41,559 bases of DNA from an uncultured Erysipelotrichaceae bacterium (GTDB taxonomy: Bacteria > Bacillota_I > Bacilli_A > Erysipelotrichales > Erysipelotrichaceae), in NCBI GenBank assembly GCA_946537255.1, contig CAMNFS010000013.1, forward strand, positions 1 through 41,559. Direction: 5' to 3'. The notes under the pieces are model-generated. The model searched no databases, was not told the DNA's origin, and saw nothing but the letters and a program-made list of their open reading frames with translations. Below, one piece after another: positions 2,232-12,302 of the stretch (position 1 is the first letter of the stretch; each line of letters starts with the position of its first letter). The position numbers and the translations under genes are program-made.

Positions 2232-3374
2232 ATGAAATGTCCAAGATGTCTGAATACTGACAGAAGGTATTTCTATAAAGGTTCGAAGGGATGGTACTGC
2301 CGCCGGTGCATCTCCTTCGGCAGGATCCTGATTCAGGAGGAGCGGACACCGGCTCAGACGCCGAAGCTTCATGAGGGCGCGGAGGAATACATTCTTGCTT
2401 ATCCATTGACACCGGCTCAGAAACGAATCGGTCATGAAGCTGCCATAGCGCTGGAGAAACAGGATGTCCTGATCGAAGCAGTATGCGGCGCCGGCAAGAC
2501 GGAAATGACCATTGAGGCGATCGCCCGGACACTTGCACAGAAGAAAACGGTATGTTTCGCGATTGCCCGCAGACAGGTGGTGCTGGAAATCCGGGATCGT
2601 CTGGCCGGACTGTTTCCCGGCGCCAGGGTAACCGCGGTATGTCAGGGATTTACTTCCGTGACGGAGGGAGACATTATTGTCGCAACGACCCATCAGCTGT
2701 ACCGCTACGAAAAACGGTTTGATCTTCTGATTCTTGATGAGCCGGATGCCTTTCCTTTCCGGGGCAATCCGGTTCTGCATGGCATCGCTGAAACAGCCTG
2801 CCGGGGCCATCGTCTGTTTCTGACCGCTACTCCGGATGCGGTTCTGAAAAAGCGGACAGCAGATGGGAGTCTTCTTTGCCTGTATCTGAACCGGCGTCCG
2901 CATGGCCATGATCTGCCGGAGCCGGTACTGTTTGCTTCGGTTCTTCCGGTGCTGATGATCCGGCTTCTGCACTGGCTTAAAACGCATCCGGGCCCGCGCA
3001 TGGTGTTTGCTCCGACGATCCGGGAAGCACGGCTTCTGAGTCTTTTCCTTTCTCTGTTTTTTCCATGTTCATGCTGTACATCCAAAACAGAGAACCGGGA
3101 TGAAGTCATTGAAAACTTCCGGAAAAGGAAAAACGGCGTAATCGTTGCGACGACCGTACTTGAAAGAGGAGTGACGATTCCGGGTGCTGATATCTGCGTG
3201 TTTCATGCGGATCATGGCGTGTTCGACGAAGCCAGTCTGATCCAGATGGCAGGACGGGCCGGCCGTTCCTTTTCCAGTCCGGACGGATCTGTTCTGTTTC
3301 TGCTTATGAAAAGAAGCCGGACGGCGGAAGAATGCCGCAGCCGGATCAAAGAGGCGAACCGATGCGCTGCCTGA
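2232..3374 (+). CDS. comFA: Competence DNA-translocating helicase ComFA
   Basis: ComFA is the cytoplasmic ATP-driven helicase thought to pull transforming single-stranded DNA inward through ComEC. This 380-residue protein has an N-terminal four-Cys zinc site (C3, C6, C23, C26), Walker A AVCGAGKTEM (83-92), a DEPD box (169-172) in place of DEAD/DEAH, motif III TAT (198-200), and motif VI QMAGRAGR near the C-terminus. The start has a perfect AAGGAGG site. It overlaps comFC by 13 bases, the classic comF operon arrangement. Other competence genes are not in the window, apart from a ComEC-like beta-lactamase fold protein far away at 35.5-36.4 kb. Confidence 0.94.
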   Translation: MKCPRCLNTDRRYFYKGSKGWYCRRCISFGRILIQEERTPAQTPKLHEGAEEYILAYPLTPAQKRIGHEAAIALEKQDVLIEAVCGAGKTEMTIEAIARTLAQKKTVCFAIARRQVVLEIRDRLAGLFPGARVTAVCQGFTSVTEGDIIVATTHQLYRYEKRFDLLILDEPDAFPFRGNPVLHGIAETACRGHRLFLTATPDAVLKKRTADGSLLCLYLNRRPHGHDLPEPVLFASVLPVLMIRLLHWLKTHPGPRMVFAPTIREARLLSLFLSLFFPCSCCTSKTENRDEVIENFRKRKNGVIVATTVLERGVTIPGADICVFHADHGVFDEASLIQMAGRAGRSFSSPDGSVLFLLMKRSRTAEECRSRIKEANRCAA

Positions 3375-3964
3375 TGTGTGACAGGACGATCACGGAGGAG
3401 TCCCTGGCTGATTTTTTCCGGGAAACGGACGTTCTCTGTACGGAGTGCAGATCCAAATGGAAACGGATCGGCCGCCGGACCAGGTTTGCGGGTGTTCCGG
3501 CTTTTCTGCTTTATGAATACAACGAAGCGTTTTCTGACTGTCTGATTCAGTTCAAGGAATGCAAGGATGAAGCACTGAAGCCGGTGTTTCTTTATCCGGA
3601 CCGAAGAAGGCTGCGCTGGATGTTCCGCGGGCGTACCTTGCTGCTGCTTCCAAGCAGCCGGGAAAAAAGGGAGGAACGGGGATTCTCCCATCTCAGAGAA
3701 ATGTTTGAAATTCTTCGTCTTCCGATGATGGAGCCGTTTGAAAAGCGGGAGGATCGGAATCAGAAGCAGTCCAGCCGGAAAGACCGGTTGAAAATGGAAA
3801 GGAATCTTGTTCTTAGGTCCGATGCGTCCATTCCGAAAAAAGTGGTGCTTGCGGATGATGTCATCACAACCGGTGCCACGATGCGCGGTGCTCTGGCATG
3901 CCTTCCGCGGGATTGTGATGTTATGGTATTTGCCTGTGCACTGACTCCTGGAAAAGAGAAATAG
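3362..3964 (+). CDS. comFC: ComFC, competence-associated phosphoribosyltransferase-like protein
   Basis: This 200-residue ComF/GntX-family protein begins with a zinc-finger-like part (MRCLMCDRT at 1-9, then LCTECRSKW) and ends with a PRPP-binding loop, VVLADDVITTGATMRGA. In naturally competent bacteria ComFC works with ComFA in DNA uptake; its chemistry is not settled. I chose the ATG at 3362 because the protein then starts directly at the CxxC motif, and GAGG lies a suitable distance upstream. It overlaps the end of comFA, implying translational coupling. Length is near the family norm of 200-240 residues. Confidence 0.9.
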   Translation: MRCLMCDRTITEESLADFFRETDVLCTECRSKWKRIGRRTRFAGVPAFLLYEYNEAFSDCLIQFKECKDEALKPVFLYPDRRRLRWMFRGRTLLLLPSSREKREERGFSHLREMFEILRLPMMEPFEKREDRNQKQSSRKDRLKMERNLVLRSDASIPKKVVLADDVITTGATMRGALACLPRDCDVMVFACALTPGKEK

Positions 3965-3992
3965 AAAAAAAGAAGGAAACGCCGTTTCCTTC
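3965..3992 (-). terminator. Terminator of the aspartate aminotransferase gene
   Basis: GAAGGAAAC (3972-3980) and GTTTCCTTC (3984-3992) form a 9-bp stem with a 3-base loop. On the minus strand it is followed by TTTTTTT, so it mainly serves the minus-strand gene. It may also slow transcripts from comFC. Confidence 0.85.
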
Positions 3993-4008
3993 TGTAGTCA
4001 CGCACTTT

Positions 4009-5307
4009 CTACTGGGCAGCTTCTTTTTCTGCGATCAGTTTTTTGGCACTGGCGATTTTTACGCACAGAGCGAAGACGGTCATGGCCTTCTTCAGATCGT
4101 CAAGACCCGGGTAGGTCGGGGCAATCCGGATATTGGAGTCGTTGGGGTCTTTTCCATAAGGCCAGGTGGCTCCGGCAGGAGTGATGATGACACCGGCTTT
4201 CTTGGCTCTTGCGACAATGTCCTTTGCACATCCGGGCAGAGAATCAAACAGGATGAAGTATCCGCCCAGCGGCTTGGTCCAGGAGCCGATTTCCAGTTCT
4301 CCGAGTTCCTTTTCAAGAATCTCTTCCACCGCTTCGAATTTCGGACGGATGATGTCCGCGTGCTTGCGCATATGTTCCACCATACCGTGGATATCACCGA
4401 AGAAGCGCACATGCCGCAGCTGGTTGACTTTGTCATGACCGATGGTCTGTCGGCGCAGGTGCGACAGGAAATCTTCCATGTTATTCGGGCTGGTCGCAAC
4501 CGCGGCGATACCGCTTCCCGGGAAAGTAATCTTGGAAGTGGAGGAAAACTTGTATACAAGATCCGGGTTGCCGGCTCTCTTGCATTCCGCAAGAATTTCG
4601 ATCAGATAGTCCTGGTGATCATCATAGAGGTGATGGATGCCATAGGCGTTGTCCCAGAAAATCCGGAAATCGTTCGCGGCCGGTTTCAGACGGGCAAAAC
4701 GGCGGACCGTTGTGTCTGAGTAGGAGATTCCCTGCGGATTGGAATACTTGGGGACGCACCAGATGCCTTTGATGGAGTCATCTTCAGAAACATATTTCTC
4801 CACCAGATCCATGTCCGGTCCGGTCGGAGTCATGGGAACTGGAATCATTTTGATTCCGAAATATTCCGTGATTGCAAAGTGACGGTCATAGCCCGGAACC
4901 GGACACAGAAATTTGACTTCCGGAAGCCTGCACCAGGGCGTACTGCCCATGATTCCGTGGGTCCATGCTCTGCTGATGGTATCGAACATGACATTCAGTG
5001 AGGAGTTTCCGTAGATAATGATGTCCTTGGGGTTGTTTTCCATCATGTCGCCGAGCAGCTGTCTTGCCTCAACGATACCGCTGAGCTGTCCGTAATTGCG
5101 GCAGTCCGTGCCGTCTTCACAGGTCAGATCGGAAGAAGAATCCAGAACGTCCATCAGTCCCATGGAAAGGTTCAGCTGTTCGATACTGGGTTTGCCTCGG
5201 CTCATGTCAAGATGAATATCCTGGGCCTGAACCGCCTGATACTGTTTCTTCAGTTCCGCAAGTTCGCTTTTCAGCTCTTCGATGCTCATTTCCGCATAGG
5301 TTTTCAT
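4009..5307 (-). CDS. Type Ic aspartate aminotransferase (PLP-dependent)
   Basis: This 432-residue fold-type I aminotransferase resembles the Pfam Asp_aminotransf (PF12897) subgroup, which interconverts aspartate/2-oxoglutarate and oxaloacetate/glutamate in the cytoplasm. Visible are IYGNSSLNVMFDT (98-110), YSNPQG (188-193), PLP-binding Asp in FWDNAYG (D219), and Schiff-base Lys259 in SSTSKITFPGSG. The longer frame extends upstream to 5469, but GGAGGC sits just ahead of MKTYAEMS, which fixes the start. The leader RNA can form a 7-bp stem (5343-5349 with 5361-5367). The gene is divergent from secA, with both promoters in the shared gap. Exact substrate preference is inferred. Confidence 0.9.
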   Translation of the reverse strand: MKTYAEMSIEELKSELAELKKQYQAVQAQDIHLDMSRGKPSIEQLNLSMGLMDVLDSSSDLTCEDGTDCRNYGQLSGIVEARQLLGDMMENNPKDIIIYGNSSLNVMFDTISRAWTHGIMGSTPWCRLPEVKFLCPVPGYDRHFAITEYFGIKMIPVPMTPTGPDMDLVEKYVSEDDSIKGIWCVPKYSNPQGISYSDTTVRRFARLKPAANDFRIFWDNAYGIHHLYDDHQDYLIEILAECKRAGNPDLVYKFSSTSKITFPGSGIAAVATSPNNMEDFLSHLRRQTIGHDKVNQLRHVRFFGDIHGMVEHMRKHADIIRPKFEAVEEILEKELGELEIGSWTKPLGGYFILFDSLPGCAKDIVARAKKAGVIITPAGATWPYGKDPNDSNIRIAPTYPGLDDLKKAMTVFALCVKIASAKKLIAEKEAAQ

Positions 5308-5471: not shown

Positions 5472-5500
5472 TTGAATGCCTTTTTTCGGCAATGTATAAT
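5472..5500 (+). promoter_or_regulatory. secA promoter
   Basis: TTGAAT (5472-5477) and TATAAT (5495-5500) have an ideal 17-base spacer. They lie about 35 bases ahead of the secA start codon. Confidence 0.8.
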
Positions 5501-5534
5501 GGACACGCTGATGAAGAGTCAGGAGGTTTTTATT

Positions 5535-7931
5535 ATGGGAACGATATTTGACAAACTGTTTAACGTTGATGGAAGACGTCTGAAGGAAACAGAAAAAAAG
5601 ATCAAGCCAGTACTTGCACTGGAAGAAAAATATGCCGGAATGAGCGATGAGGAGCTTAAGGCGGAAACACCGCGGCTGCGTCAGCTTCTTGCGGAGGGAA
5701 AGACACTGGATGACATTCTTCCTGAGGCATTCGCAACTGCCCGCGAGGCATGCCGAAGAGTCATCGGGGAGTTTCCTTATCCGGTGCAGCTGATGGGCGC
5801 TGCAGTCATGCAGGGCGGTGACATTGCGGAAATGAAAACCGGTGAGGGAAAGACGCTCACCTCCGTCATGGCCGTCTATCTGAACGCATTGGAAGGAAAG
5901 GGTGTACATGTAGTCACCGTCAATGAATATCTGTCGGAACGAGACAGTGAGTGGATGGGACAGATTCACCGGTTTCTGGGTCTTACCGTCGGTCTGAATC
6001 TTCGCTCCATGTCGCCAGCGCAGAAGCGCGCCGCCTATAACTGTGATATTACCTATACAACCAACTCCGAGCTTGGCTTTGACTACCTGCGCGACAACAT
6101 GGTCAAAAATGCCAGAGACCGGGTTCAGAGAGGTCTGAACTTCGCGCTGGTTGATGAAGTGGACAGCATTCTGATTGATGAATCCAGAACACCGCTGATT
6201 ATTTCCGGCGGTATGCGTCAGACTGCGAATCTCTACCTTCAGGCAGATCGTTTTGTCAAACGCCTCAAGGAACAGGTAAGCGAAGGAGATGAGGTTGTGA
6301 CCCCGGGCGATTATGAAATCGATGTCAAGGCCAGAACCGTACAGCTGACGGAGCAGGGCGTTGCCAAAGCGGAAAAGGTATTCCGGATTGAAAACCTCTA
6401 TAATCTGGAGCACACCCAGCTTCTGCACCGGATCAACCAGGCCCTCAAGGCGAATTACATCATGATGAAGGATGTGGAATATGTCGTGGATACGGAAAAC
6501 GATGAAATCGATATCGTCGACCCGAATACCGGACGTCTTATGAAAGGACGGGAATGGTCCGATGGTCTTCATCAGGCAGTATGTGCGAAGGAAGGTATTT
6601 CCATCCGTCAGGAAACAACCATTCTCGCAACGATTACCTATCAGAATTTCTTCCGTCTTTACAATAAGCTCGCCGGCATGACCGGTACCGCAAAGACCGA
6701 AGAAGAGGAATTCACTGAGATTTACAACATGCTCGTCTATGAGATTCCTACCAACCGCCCGGTGGCGAGAATCGATCATCCGGACGCGATTTTCGGAACC
6801 AAGGATGCCAAGTTCAAGGCTCTGGTTGAAGAAGTCAGAGCCCGGCATGAAAAGGGCCAGCCGGTACTGGTCGGTACGATTGCGGTTGAGACTTCGGAGC
6901 TGATCCACGAGATGCTGAAGAAGGAAAAAATCCGCCATGAGGTACTGAACGCGAAGAATCACGCAAGAGAAGCGGAGATTATTGCCAAGGCAGGTCAGAA
7001 AGGCGCGGTCACGATCGCTACCAACATGGCCGGCCGAGGAACCGACATCAAACTCGGAGAGGGCGTACGGGAACTCGGAGGCCTCTGTGTTCTCGGTAGT
7101 GAACGGCATGAGTCGAGACGTATTGACAATCAGCTCCGCGGCCGTTCCGGACGTCAGGGAGATCCGGGAGAGTCCAGATTCTATGTCAGCGTACAGGATG
7201 ATCTGATGGTACGCTTCGGATCGGAGCGTCTGGAAGGAATCTTCAAATCTCTGGGCGATACCGCCGTGGAATCGAAAACAGTCACCAAGTCCATCAACAG
7301 TGCCCAGAAGCGGGTTGAAGGCGTAAACTTCGACGCTCGAAAGACGCTGCTTCAGTATGATGATGTTCTTCGCCAGCAGCGTGAGGTCATGTATGATCAG
7401 AGAAACTATATTCTTGATCATGATGATGTGCACAGTGTCATCAGACAGATGTTTGAACGGGTGATCTCAGATACCGTAGGAGCTCATATCAATCCTGAAT
7501 CAAGAAGCGGTGAGCTGTTTGTTCCGGAACTCGTGGAATCATTGAAGAAACTTGGTTTCGGAGGACTGGTGACAGAAAACGATCTGAATGGAAAGACAGC
7601 GGAAGAAGCAGCGGCACTGATCAATGAAAAAGCATGGACTGCCTATGATCAGAAGATTGATCCGGTACGGGAGCAGATCCGTCATTATGAACGCGACATG
7701 TCGCTTCAGGTCATCGACCGGGCGTGGGTCGGACATATTGACATGATGTCCAAGCTCAGAGACGGAATCGGACTCAGAAGCTATGCTCAGGATAATCCGC
7801 TGCAGGCCTATGTTCAGGAAGGCTTTGCCATGTTTGAGAATATGATGAGCAATATTGCCCAGGATATCGTCAGCTACTGCATGCGTCTGAATGTGGTAGT
7901 CCGCCGTCCGGCAGAAACGCAGAACGCGTAA
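5535..7931 (+). CDS. secA: Preprotein translocase ATPase SecA
   Basis: SecA drives secretory proteins through SecYEG using ATP. The 798-residue protein has Walker A MKTGEGKT (100-107), the Asp box VDEVDSILIDE, the TTNSELGFDYLRDN motif, and the second RecA-like domain with NMAGRGTDIKLGEGV and RGRSGRQGDPG. The start is fixed by AGGAGG before MGTIFDK; an upstream in-frame ATG at 5472 lies within the promoter. It ends after the helical scaffold domain (RLNVVVRRPAETQNA) and lacks the Cys-rich metal-binding tail present in many SecA proteins. prfB follows 14 bases later, the common secA-prfB pairing of Bacillota. Confidence 0.97.
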   Translation: MGTIFDKLFNVDGRRLKETEKKIKPVLALEEKYAGMSDEELKAETPRLRQLLAEGKTLDDILPEAFATAREACRRVIGEFPYPVQLMGAAVMQGGDIAEMKTGEGKTLTSVMAVYLNALEGKGVHVVTVNEYLSERDSEWMGQIHRFLGLTVGLNLRSMSPAQKRAAYNCDITYTTNSELGFDYLRDNMVKNARDRVQRGLNFALVDEVDSILIDESRTPLIISGGMRQTANLYLQADRFVKRLKEQVSEGDEVVTPGDYEIDVKARTVQLTEQGVAKAEKVFRIENLYNLEHTQLLHRINQALKANYIMMKDVEYVVDTENDEIDIVDPNTGRLMKGREWSDGLHQAVCAKEGISIRQETTILATITYQNFFRLYNKLAGMTGTAKTEEEEFTEIYNMLVYEIPTNRPVARIDHPDAIFGTKDAKFKALVEEVRARHEKGQPVLVGTIAVETSELIHEMLKKEKIRHEVLNAKNHAREAEIIAKAGQKGAVTIATNMAGRGTDIKLGEGVRELGGLCVLGSERHESRRIDNQLRGRSGRQGDPGESRFYVSVQDDLMVRFGSERLEGIFKSLGDTAVESKTVTKSINSAQKRVEGVNFDARKTLLQYDDVLRQQREVMYDQRNYILDHDDVHSVIRQMFERVISDTVGAHINPESRSGELFVPELVESLKKLGFGGLVTENDLNGKTAEEAAALINEKAWTAYDQKIDPVREQIRHYERDMSLQVIDRAWVGHIDMMSKLRDGIGLRSYAQDNPLQAYVQEGFAMFENMMSNIAQDIVSYCMRLNVVVRRPAETQNA

Positions 7932-7945
7932 CAGGAGAATACAGT

Positions 7946-9047
7946 ATGGAACTTTATGAAATGAAACAGGGCATCGCCCGCTGCCAGGCCAAATTGGAGC
8001 AGCTTGGCTCCTCTCTTTGACCTGGCCGGAAAAAAAGAGCAGATTGCACAGAATGAAGAGGCGATGAACGCGGCGGATTTCTGGAATGACCAGAAAAAAG
8101 CCCAGGCACTCATCCGCTCCAACAACGCGCTGAAGGAACTGGTGTCTTCCAGCGAGAAACTGACCGGCGAGCTGAATGATCTGTCGGAATCAGTAGCTGA
8201 ACTGAATGAGTCCTTTGATCCGGATCTCGCGGAACTGGTGGAAGAGGAATACCGTTCGGTCATGAAGGACTTTGAAGCGTATGAGATTCAGGTGCTTCTG
8301 AGCGGTCCTTATGACAACCATAACGCCCTTCTCGAAATTCATCCGGGAGCGGGCGGAACGGAAGCGATGGACTGGGCCGGCATGCTTTACCGCATGTATG
8401 TCAGATGGGCTGAACGGCGCGGATACAAGGTTACCGTACTTGATTATCAGGATGGGGAAGAAGCGGGAATGAAATCCTGCAGCCTGCAGATCAGCGGTCC
8501 GATGGCTTATGGATATCTGAAGGCAGAGAGCGGCGTACACCGGCTGGTGCGCATTTCGCCGTTTGACTCAAACGCCAGACGTCATACCAGCTTCGCCAGT
8601 GTGGAAGTCATGCCGGAATTTGAGGATGATATTGACATTGAGATTGATGAAAAGGATCTTGAGGTCATCACCATGCGTTCCTCCGGAGCCGGCGGCCAGC
8701 ATATCAACAAAACCGACAGCGCGGTACGTATGACCTACAAGCCGCTGAACATTACAGTATTCTGTCAGACCCAGCGTTCTCAGCTTCAGAACCGGGAAGC
8801 CTGCATGAACATGCTGAAATCAAAACTGCTTCAGATCAGAATTCAGGAACAGGCAAAAAAGATGGCGGAAATCAAAGGTGAGGTCAAGGCAAACGAATGG
8901 GGATCCCAGATCCGTTCCTATGTCTTTCAGCCTTATACCATGGTCAAGGATCTTCGTACCGGTCATGAGGCCGGAAATATTCAGGGCGTCATGGACGGAG
9001 ATCTGGATGAGTTTATCTACAGTTATCTGCGTCAGCAGATTGCCTGA
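7946..9047 (+). CDS. prfB: Peptide chain release factor 2, +1 programmed frameshift
   Basis: RF2 reads UGA and UAA stop codons and triggers peptide release on the ribosome. Codons 1-24 run from the ATG at 7946 to CTT (8015-8017), where an in-frame TGA (8018-8020) follows. Skipping one base (8018) joins the main frame at GAC 8019, giving join(7946..8017,8019..9047), 366 residues, the normal RF2 length. The SPF stop-recognition motif (ISPFDSNARRHTS) and the catalytic GGQ in SSGAGGQHINKTDS are present. GGAGA precedes the ATG. The gene ends TGA TGA. The purine-rich stimulator usually just upstream of CTTTGAC is not evident here. Confidence 0.95.
8015..8021 (+). promoter_or_regulatory. prfB autoregulatory +1 frameshift site CTTTGAC
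   Basis: The slippery CTT codon is followed by in-frame TGA and C, the canonical RF2 shift heptamer. When RF2 is scarce, the ribosome pauses at TGA and slips from CTT to TTT. The bases immediately upstream, GGCTCCTCT, are not Shine-Dalgarno-like; the nearest purine run, GGAG, is about 15 bases away. Confidence 0.93.
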
Positions 9048-9083: not shown

Positions 9084-11615
9084 ATGAAAAAAGAGATCAA
9101 CTATACCCTCCGGCTTCAGGACTGGCCGGTCACTGACAGCGGCAGTGTAAAGCGGGTCATGACCCGGGAGCTGAACCTGTCCAGAAAGGAAATCTCACGT
9201 CTGAAATTCGACGGCGAGATTCTTTTGAACGGCAGATCGGTAAAGGTAAATGATCACATGCGGATCGGAGATACCCTGACGCTTCGTTTTCCGGAAAGCG
9301 AGACCGGTCCGATTCCCGCCGTCAGTATGAGACCGGATATTCTGTATGAGGATGAGGATGTTGTCGTGGTGAACAAGCCTTCCGGGATTGTCAGTCATCC
9401 GGTGCACGGACATCTGAATGACTCCATGGGGACGATTCTTGCGGCGCATTACGCGGAAAGCGGAGGAGATTTTGTCATCCGTCCGATCGGACGGCTGGAC
9501 AAGGATGTCAGCGGTGTGGCGGTTTATGGAAAAAACCGGCCGGGAGCCGCAAGGCTGTCCAGAGATCTTTCTGAAGGGAGATTTCAGAAACACTATACTG
9601 CGTTTGTCGGCGGCGTTCTTGAAACAAGGGCAGGGATGATCGATGAGCCGATTGAAAAGGAAGATGGGGAAAGACGCCGGGTAGTCGGCACGGAAGATGG
9701 CAAACCGGCCAGGACTTTCTACCGCGTGACGCATGAATTCCATGTCGGAGACAAATCCATCTCCGTTCTTGCGGTGGAGATTGATACCGGCAGAACCCAT
9801 CAGATCCGCGCGCATCTTGCGTCAATCGGGTTTCCGATTCTCGGGGATGAGCTGTATGGCGGAGATATGTCTCTGATTCAGCGGCCGGCCCTTCACTGCG
9901 CAAGAGCGGATTTTCTGACTCCGTTTACAAGGCTGCCGGTAGTGGTGGAAGCACCGATTCCGAATGATATGAAAAATCTGCTTTCGGCAAGCGCTTCGGA
10001 AAAGGAAAATGTTCTGAGTCAGAAGCCCGCTTCCGAAAATGATTCCGATAATGTTCCTTCCGCTGTAAAAAAAGAAGACAGTCCGCCGGTACGCCGGGAA
10101 GCACCGGTTTCAATGGAACGGACGATGATTGAGGAGCCGGCTGTCATGGATGAGGGAACAGACCGGGCGGATCGTGTAAAAAGGACTGTGGGCATCTGTC
10201 TTCTGGTCGCTGCGGTGATCGGCGGCGTTATTCTTCTGTTTCTGGGAATTCAGAACAGACAGCGCAGAAAAGCGGCGGAGGCTGCAGAGGAAGCCGCGAT
10301 CTATGAATTCCTGGACATTCAGTTCCGGGATGAGACAACGGTGGAATACGGCGGTGATTTCCGTCCGGAAGACTATGTTGTTTTCGCAAACGGCACTCTG
10401 ACGGTCAATGGAACCGTGGATACGATGAAGCTCGGAAATCAGGAAGTCGTTTATATTCTGACGACGGAATCAACCGGCGGCGTTCAGGTCAAAAAGGATT
10501 TCACCCACACATTTACCGTCAAGGATACGGTGGGACCGGAGATTCTGCTCAGGGAAAAAGAAATCGAAATCGATCTGAATCAGGAGTATGATCTGCGACA
10601 GAATGTCATTTCCGCAAAGGATCCGGTAGATGGAGATGTGGAATTTGAAATAGATGAATCTGAATTCGTCAACAATACTCCCGGTACCTATACGGTAACT
10701 GTTACTGCATCTGACCAGTTTGGAAACAGAACGGAAAAAACCTTTCAGGTGACAGTGAAGGAAAAAGCTTCCCTGGCTGCGGCAGATAAAAAGGAAGAAA
10801 AGAAAACAAAGACCGACGCGTCTCCTGCTCCATCCCCCACACCCGCTCCAAGCGCGGCGCCTTCCGATGTGAAAGCTCCGGTTATTGAGCTTGGCTCTGA
10901 TAAGGTAACGATTACTGTCGGCGACAGTTTTGCGGCAGGAACCTATATTTCCTCAGTCAGTGATGAGACAGACGGAGCGCTCCGGTATTCGGAGGAACTG
11001 AAGGAAGGAACCTATACCGTTGCGTCCAATGTCGACCCGAATGCGGCTGGATCCTATGAGGTAAGTGTGACTGCCCTTGATAAGGCAGGCAATCGGGCTT
11101 CTGCTCTTATGGCAGTGACGGTCGAGGAAAAAAAGACTGAAAGCAAAGCCGAAGACAGGACGGAAGAAAAGACCGTGCATTCCGTTCCGGATTCATCCGA
11201 TCCCAAAAGACAGATCTATGAGTTTCTGGTGAATGAAATGAGCTTCAGCCATGCCCAGGCCTGTGGAATTCTTGCCAACATGCACCGGGAATCGCGATTT
11301 AATCCGACCGCGGACAATGGGCTTGGATATTTCGGACTCTGTCAGTGGGGGTATGAGCGAAAGGACAATCTGATCAGCTGGTGTGAGGAAAACGGATATG
11401 ATTATAAAACCATTGATGGCCAGCTTCATTTTCTGAAGTACGAAATGCCTCTGTTCTATCCCAACACCACGGCTCAGCTGCGGGCCGCGTCCGATGATGA
11501 GGAGGGCGCACGCCGGGCATGCTGGGTATTCTCCATTGGATATGAGGTCTCGGGTGAGGAAATCGCGGAAATGTCAAAAGACAAGGCTGTGGAGTATTTC
11601 AATGAGCTTGCCTGA
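9084..11615 (+). CDS. Pseudouridine synthase - TM - Ig-like - phage-tail lysozyme fusion protein
   Basis: One uninterrupted 843-codon frame. Residues 1-70 form an S4 RNA-binding domain. Residues 85-295 are an RluA/RluD-type 23S rRNA pseudouridine synthase, with IGRLDKDVSG (catalytic D139) and RTHQIRAHLASIGFPILGDELYGG-like motif III (237-260). Residues 296-365 are a charged Ser/Glu/Lys-rich linker. A single hydrophobic helix follows at about 369-389, flanked by basic residues. Residues 405-560 and 597-681 look like two to three bacterial Ig-like/DUF5011 modules, separated by a Pro/Ala/Ser linker (580-594). Residues 705-843 match the phage tail lysozyme type (Phage_lysozyme2), with GILANMHRESRFNP and probable catalytic E736. 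Topology would put the synthase in the cytoplasm and the muramidase outside. No ribosome binding site is visible at the ATG. An internal in-frame ATG at 10146, with GAGGAG nine bases upstream, could give the membrane-lysozyme half alone. Confidence 0.85.
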   Translation: MKKEINYTLRLQDWPVTDSGSVKRVMTRELNLSRKEISRLKFDGEILLNGRSVKVNDHMRIGDTLTLRFPESETGPIPAVSMRPDILYEDEDVVVVNKPSGIVSHPVHGHLNDSMGTILAAHYAESGGDFVIRPIGRLDKDVSGVAVYGKNRPGAARLSRDLSEGRFQKHYTAFVGGVLETRAGMIDEPIEKEDGERRRVVGTEDGKPARTFYRVTHEFHVGDKSISVLAVEIDTGRTHQIRAHLASIGFPILGDELYGGDMSLIQRPALHCARADFLTPFTRLPVVVEAPIPNDMKNLLSASASEKENVLSQKPASENDSDNVPSAVKKEDSPPVRREAPVSMERTMIEEPAVMDEGTDRADRVKRTVGICLLVAAVIGGVILLFLGIQNRQRRKAAEAAEEAAIYEFLDIQFRDETTVEYGGDFRPEDYVVFANGTLTVNGTVDTMKLGNQEVVYILTTESTGGVQVKKDFTHTFTVKDTVGPEILLREKEIEIDLNQEYDLRQNVISAKDPVDGDVEFEIDESEFVNNTPGTYTVTVTASDQFGNRTEKTFQVTVKEKASLAAADKKEEKKTKTDASPAPSPTPAPSAAPSDVKAPVIELGSDKVTITVGDSFAAGTYISSVSDETDGALRYSEELKEGTYTVASNVDPNAAGSYEVSVTALDKAGNRASALMAVTVEEKKTESKAEDRTEEKTVHSVPDSSDPKRQIYEFLVNEMSFSHAQACGILANMHRESRFNPTADNGLGYFGLCQWGYERKDNLISWCEENGYDYKTIDGQLHFLKYEMPLFYPNTTAQLRAASDDEEGARRACWVFSIGYEVSGEEIAEMSKDKAVEYFNELA

Positions 11616-11715: not shown

Positions 11716-12174
11716 TCACTTGCTCTCGGGATTATTATCCGCCGCAAAAGGAGGGTCATCGTGATCATCATCGTTTTGCCAGTTGGTATCGCCACCGCCG
11801 CCGCCGATCGCGCAGCAACAACGTGAGACAGTGACCCACCAGCCATGAATGCCGTTATTCCAGCATCTTTTATCGTAAAAGCCGTCTCCGACAAGCGGGC
11901 ATGCACAGATTCCCTGATGATCCAGTGATGCCTCTCCGCCGCCGCCGACGACACAGACGCAGGTCTTTCCGCCGGCAACCGCAGCCATTTCATCTTCACT
12001 GAGGTTCTGCGGTTTCGAGTTACTCAAATCATTGAAATCCTCTTCTGTAAGCGTGATGTCATACTTCTTCGCGAGTTCAATCAGCTTTTCCTTTTCCGTG
12101 CATGTGGTGATCTCTTCACGGGCCTTTTCGTCTTTTGATATCAGTTCATAAAGCTTCTTAATGTTTTCTGTCAT
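11716..12174 (-). CDS. Nif11-leader RiPP precursor peptide with Cys/Gly-rich core
   Basis: This 152-residue peptide has an N-terminal leader (1-69) of the Nif11/TIGR03798 type: an amphipathic helix MTENIKKLYELISKD, the LIELAKKYDITLTEEDF segment, then NLSEDEMAAVAGG ending in a double-Gly cleavage site (G68-G69). The 83-residue core holds eight Cys (72, 74, 90, 92, 104, 119-121, including a CCC run), two oligo-Gly runs, aromatic residues and an acidic tail, DDDHDD. Such precursors are normally modified and exported by a lanthionine, radical SAM or other enzyme plus a C39-peptidase ABC transporter. None is in this window, so it is an orphan here. The start is fixed by AGGAGG eight bases upstream of MTENIKK. 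It lies downstream of nudC on the same strand, with a 128-base gap. Confidence 0.85.
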   Translation of the reverse strand: MTENIKKLYELISKDEKAREEITTCTEKEKLIELAKKYDITLTEEDFNDLSNSKPQNLSEDEMAAVAGGKTCVCVVGGGGEASLDHQGICACPLVGDGFYDKRCWNNGIHGWWVTVSRCCCAIGGGGGDTNWQNDDDHDDPPFAADNNPESK

Positions 12175-12195
12175 GATATTCCTCCTGTATGATAC

Positions 12196-12229
12196 GGAAT
12201 GTTCCATTCCTATATACGATTCAATTGAA
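12196..12229. promoter_or_regulatory. Two palindromes upstream of the Nif11 precursor gene
   Basis: GGAATG-TTC-CATTCC (12196-12210) and TTCAATTGAA (12220-12229) lie 22 to 55 bases upstream of the start codon, where operators would be expected. TATATA sits between them. No clean -35/-10 pair could be assigned, so the regulatory role is inference. Confidence 0.4.
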
Positions 12230-12302
12230 CATTTCTCTCGCAAAAATCTGTATTTTTCTGAATATCCGTCTTTTTTTGTGCGTAAACCAGCAAAACAGGT
12301 GC

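Follow-up and report, generated by a model that had tools for sequence, protein, structure and literature searches.

A pseudouridine synthase and a membrane-anchored phage-tail-type lysozyme joined in one open reading frame in 22 species of an Erysipelotrichaceae genus

The window, by which we mean the whole 41,559-nt stretch of uncultured Erysipelotrichaceae DNA analysed here, carries on its forward strand secA (5535-7931), prfB (8004-9047) and, directly downstream of prfB, a gene at 9084-11615 that starts with ATG and encodes 843 amino acids plus a stop. The gap between the prfB stop codon and this gene is 36 nt, secA lies further upstream, and the synteny is repeated in relatives. As originally predicted, a single open frame without internal stops joins a pseudouridine synthase head, a disordered linker, a transmembrane helix, Ig-like modules and a lysozyme. 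On the far side, a small reverse-strand ORF with a Nif11-type leader (11716-12243, PF07862) sits between the fusion and a NUDIX gene and is possibly the precursor of a peptide natural product; the equivalent position in another genome (G023, L068) holds a gene for an alpha-amylase-domain protein.

Residues 1-296 (9084-9971, forward strand) form the synthase head. PseudoU_synth_2 (PF00849) matches aa 92-247 in Pfam (1.1e-28, 100.8 bits against a cut-off of 26.8), the NCBIfam RluA model TIGR00005 matches aa 22-302 (205.8 bits against 192.7), and a Foldseek comparison of the model with the PDB retrieves RluD (2ist, E 1.6e-23), RluA (TMt 0.87) and also RluC. The original description of an S4-RluA synthase stands for its RluA part, while the S4 domain (PF01479) gives a weak sequence match that falls below the cut-off (E 0.064, 13.4 bits against 22.8); in phmmer, aa 32-261 align with E. 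coli RluD over a stretch that takes in the N-terminal domain of the latter, and we describe this end of the head as S4-like. The catalytic Asp139 (codon 9498-9500), predicted to be intact, lies within GRLDKDVSG and aligns with its E. coli RluD counterpart.

The head stays below the curated cut-off of the RluD equivalog NF008385 (131 against 351 bits). The window's genome encodes five clear RluA-family members, one of them directly after lspA, a site that we take to be the usual place of a YlyB/RluD-type gene; since that gene is separate, the fused synthase is another paralogue. Of the B. subtilis RluA-family members, YjbO is responsible for tRNA pseudouridine 31/32 and YhcT acts on 23S rRNA, and which of the two RNAs is targeted was not predicted by sequence (PMC7408541). 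Given both the separate lspA-linked gene and this lack of predictive power, the earlier assignment of rRNA as the substrate is not established: the target of the fused head could be tRNA or 23S rRNA, and 'rRNA' would be too specific a label. In G060 and G066, small genomes of the genus (1.4-1.5 Mb) that are nearly complete, there are just two RluA-family matches, the best at ~34-35% identity, so that the secA-prfB-linked synthase appears to be absent from them and may be dispensable.

The head is followed by an acidic, proline-rich linker (aa 297-365, 9972-10178) and a transmembrane helix (aa 369-389, 10188-10250). AlphaFold (mean pLDDT 80) predicts the synthase well, leaves residues 306-367 disordered and models a helix at 366-409 that includes the membrane segment. 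The strongest hydrophobic stretch of the scanned region, with a mean hydropathy of 3.0, falls at 371-389, in agreement with the helix originally placed at 369-389, and a single hydrophobic helix is present in every one of 22 fused proteins recovered from the genus. Charges summed over these proteins amount to 78 K/R and 63 D/E on the N-terminal side of the helix (net +15) and to 59 and 46 on the C-terminal side (net +13). With the positive-inside bias nearly absent, the topology is argued from the position of the single helix, which comes after a folded cytosolic enzyme and ahead of a wall hydrolase. This architecture is expected to place the synthase inside and the lysozyme outside, as had been proposed, and most likely the fusion is a membrane protein of N-in/C-out orientation in which both enzymes work.

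For the C-terminal half, AlphaFold models three beta domains followed by an all-helical lysozyme, and the Ig-like modules named in the original prediction are better described as three beta modules: a first extracellular domain with an EYG motif, recognised from alignment and the model (aa 412-480, 10317-10523), Ig-like domain 1 (aa 486-560, 10539-10763), within which Bact_surface_Ig-like scores above its curated Pfam cut-off at aa 491-558 (1.2e-11), and Ig-like domain 2, seen in the model (aa 600-681, 10881-11126). The phage-tail-type lysozyme (aa 707-842, 11202-11609) matches Phage_lysozyme2 (PF18013) at aa 709-840 (3.3e-26, 92.6 bits against 28.2) and is the only PF18013 protein in the window's genome. 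Its likely catalytic Glu736 (codon 11289-11291, in an RES motif) aligns with the Glu at position 45 of phi29 gp13 (3CSR), which we take to be the proposed catalytic residue of that enzyme; both the lysozyme type and the residue are as first predicted.

Free proteins with the same sequence of membrane helix, EYG domain and Ig-like domains, ending in a lysozyme or in other C-terminal domains, are common in the genus. The window's genome itself has a 368-aa TM-Ig protein (L165, contig G000:C27, 1550-2656, forward strand) with a different C-terminal domain that by eye resembles an L,D-transpeptidase, which suggests a general wall-enzyme chassis in the genus. In two genomes, a TM-Ig-lysozyme follows a different cytosolic head of ~190 aa (L141 in G025, 3354-5000, forward strand; L142 in G034, 5478-7142, reverse strand). 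Among the 70 genomes of the genus, this head is confined to these two, and it has no Pfam match, leaving a sigma-factor-like reading of it unsupported by Pfam.

One ORF encodes this arrangement of synthase, linker, membrane helix, Ig-like domains and lysozyme in each of 22 species of the genus, among them that of the window. All 22 fusions adjoin prfB, and secA as well wherever the contig reaches that far; two of them are cut by contig ends. Identity of the fused relatives to the window protein ranges from 38 to 66%, and two matches carry names in GTDB, both as 'Solobacterium sp.' MAGs of sheep duodenal origin. Invariant positions in the alignment of the 22 proteins include R137/L138/D139 and TGR.HQ.R in the synthase and R735/E736/S737 in the lysozyme. 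The linker varies from 24 to 96 aa, yet is in frame in 22/22, while the other frames contain stops in nearly all. Pooled over six close pairs, dN/dS amounts to 0.08 in the synthase, 0.35 in the linker (95% bootstrap interval 0.25-0.47), 0.17 in the membrane helix, 0.11 in the Ig-like region and 0.04 in the lysozyme. Synthase and lysozyme are thus under strong purifying selection and the linker evolves as protein, bearing out its conservation as one ORF. Constraint on the fused synthase (0.08) equals or exceeds that on the free synthase found in other species (0.12).

Among the matches listed from 316 genomes of the order, spanning 80 genera, no full-length fusion was found outside the genus. 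Three candidates were set aside: in G264 and G272 the long frame extends upstream of the synthase, whose 3' end is bare, and in G129 the match is a synthase ORF of 303 aa.

A branch of the synthase tree (84/97) separates 38 bare synthases from a group of 23 fused proteins (the 22 plus one paralogue), six bare synthases and one two-gene case. The secA+prfB tree divides in largely the same way, G092 falling on the fused side, and its internal support is weak. The two-gene case, G064 (L111), lies at the same locus: the synthase gene ends within the start of the TM-Ig-lysozyme gene (8-nt overlap), the latter has AAGGAG upstream of its ATG, and the sisters of this genome (G005, G070 and G078) are fused. 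In G006, G019, G020 and G065 the TM-Ig-lysozyme is located elsewhere and nests among the fused ones in the lysozyme tree (97/94); in the last three of these a bare synthase is found with the lysozyme apart. Other species in the fused half have a bare synthase alone at the site, and near the bare synthases of this half we found no convincing remnants of the lysozyme half. The additional paralogue (L077, contig G003:C12, 6098-8401, reverse strand; G003b) lies away from secA-prfB and has an altered active-site motif in its synthase head (ALDSLGSTTSG as against GRLDKDVSG), a ~200-aa linker with repeats, and TM and Ig-like regions without a lysozyme.

The fused state requires four changes on the synthase tree. 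Since fusions are rare, we prefer a history of one fusion with several later losses and splits; repeated fusion of an adjacent gene pair is a possible alternative. Orthologues split into two genes around codon 300, which the original prediction had named as evidence against itself, do occur, although in a minority (G064; G019, G020 and G065) beside the 22 fused species, and these reflect later splitting or parallel histories rather than a sequencing error at this locus. Since some species of the fused half have the parts separate, the fusion, although long-lived, is not obligatory.

Taken on its sequence, the locus very probably represents a genuine, vertically inherited gene fusion, producing one N-in/C-out chain whose enzymes would probably act independently. 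An ancestral RluA-family synthase gene beside secA-prfB would have been extended in frame, at the 3' end, by a membrane-anchored Ig-lysozyme of the type common in the genus. Translation would yield one chain, and one polypeptide is the simplest reading of the gene, with a minor second product possible. The synthase head would fold in the cytoplasm and modify RNA (tRNA or 23S rRNA), the flexible acidic linker would act as a leash to a single signal-anchor helix inserted N-in/C-out, and the Ig-like stalk would take a presumably active lysozyme into the wall. The occurrence of split forms in relatives makes it probable that each enzyme works on its own, with tethering tolerated; a role for the joining in localisation, gating or dosage is possible.

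A less likely explanation, to which we give a minor share of our confidence, is that the chain functionally ties RNA modification or ribosome assembly to the envelope, for example if the head bound pre-ribosomes or RNA and so localised or gated the lysozyme, or if the membrane confined the synthase to membrane-bound ribosomes. Maintenance of the fusion over deep divergence, with both active sites and the linker under selection, would fit such coupling, as would the membership of E. coli RluD in a pre-50S particle (7bl5), and the G003b paralogue keeps the head-TM-Ig layout despite its altered synthase and missing lysozyme, which might suggest a use for the scaffold itself. The two genes of G064, the distant lysozymes of G019, G020 and G065 and the species of the fused half with a bare synthase only at the site all run counter to coupling; we argue from the splits in sister lineages that tethering is dispensable. 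The linker, weakly constrained in both length and sequence, also resembles a passive tether. The stronger proposal, of a transmembrane protein that physically couples cytoplasmic RNA modification or ribosome binding to wall cutting outside, for instance by directing wall cleavage to points of contact between ribosomes and membrane, or through RNA binding that gates the lysozyme, seems to us more doubtful still.

As unlikely as functional coupling, in our estimation, is the production of two proteins from the gene, either as the full chain together with a shorter lysozyme initiated internally just before the membrane helix, or through cleavage of the linker to free the synthase. The window's gene does have a possible internal start at ATG355 (10146-10148) with AGGAG 9 nt upstream, from which a separate lysozyme product could be made, G081 has TTG343 with AAGGAGG, and the predicted disorder of the linker would make protease access plausible. 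Such Shine-Dalgarno-like starts in the linker are absent from 17 of the 22 fused genes, however, and in the other five they occupy different, non-homologous places, with those of the window's gene and G081 the two to be taken seriously, leading us to reject a conserved internal start; ATG355 itself has no conserved counterpart in relatives. Finally, an assembly or sequencing error that joined neighbouring genes through an overlooked stop or frameshift around codon 300 might be entertained for sequences that are largely metagenome assemblies, with relatives whose genes are separate, at exactly this locus in G064, but it is ruled out, as is a chance open frame, by the recurrence of the identical join with different linkers in 22 species, each with its own assembly, and by selection on the linker, whose dN/dS is below 1.

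The clade in which the fusion occurs amounts to a natural experiment, since close relatives have the same two enzymes fused, split in place or relocated. This makes the effect of tethering on RNA modification or wall growth directly testable, and is of wider relevance to the origin, persistence and reversal of domain fusions. Within the open-access literature searched we found no described protein that pairs an RNA-modifying enzyme with a peptidoglycan hydrolase across a membrane; the protein combines known families in a new way.

Each of its parts can be set beside a known system. With the RluA family (E. coli RluD, RluC and RluA; B. subtilis YhcT and YjbO) the head shares the full catalytic domain, including GRLDKDVSG and TGRTHQIR. 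E. coli RluD is its nearest solved relative by sequence, while the fold match spans RluD, RluC and RluA, and what the fusion adds to this family is the C-terminal linker, the membrane helix and the wall hydrolase. With the N-terminal lysozyme of phi29 gp13 (PF18013) it has in common the lysozyme domain and the aligned catalytic Glu; the lysozyme of the fusion is however cellular and carried on a membrane-anchored Ig stalk instead of a phage tail tip, and the endopeptidase domain of gp13 is missing. The free TM-Ig proteins of the genus (L148, L151, L152 and L156; L165) show the same N-terminally anchored layout of membrane helix, beta/EYG domain, Ig-like domains and hydrolase. The lysozyme and Ig regions of the free TM-Ig-lysozymes are homologous to those of the fusion, and in the free proteins a short cytosolic tail takes the place of the synthase head.
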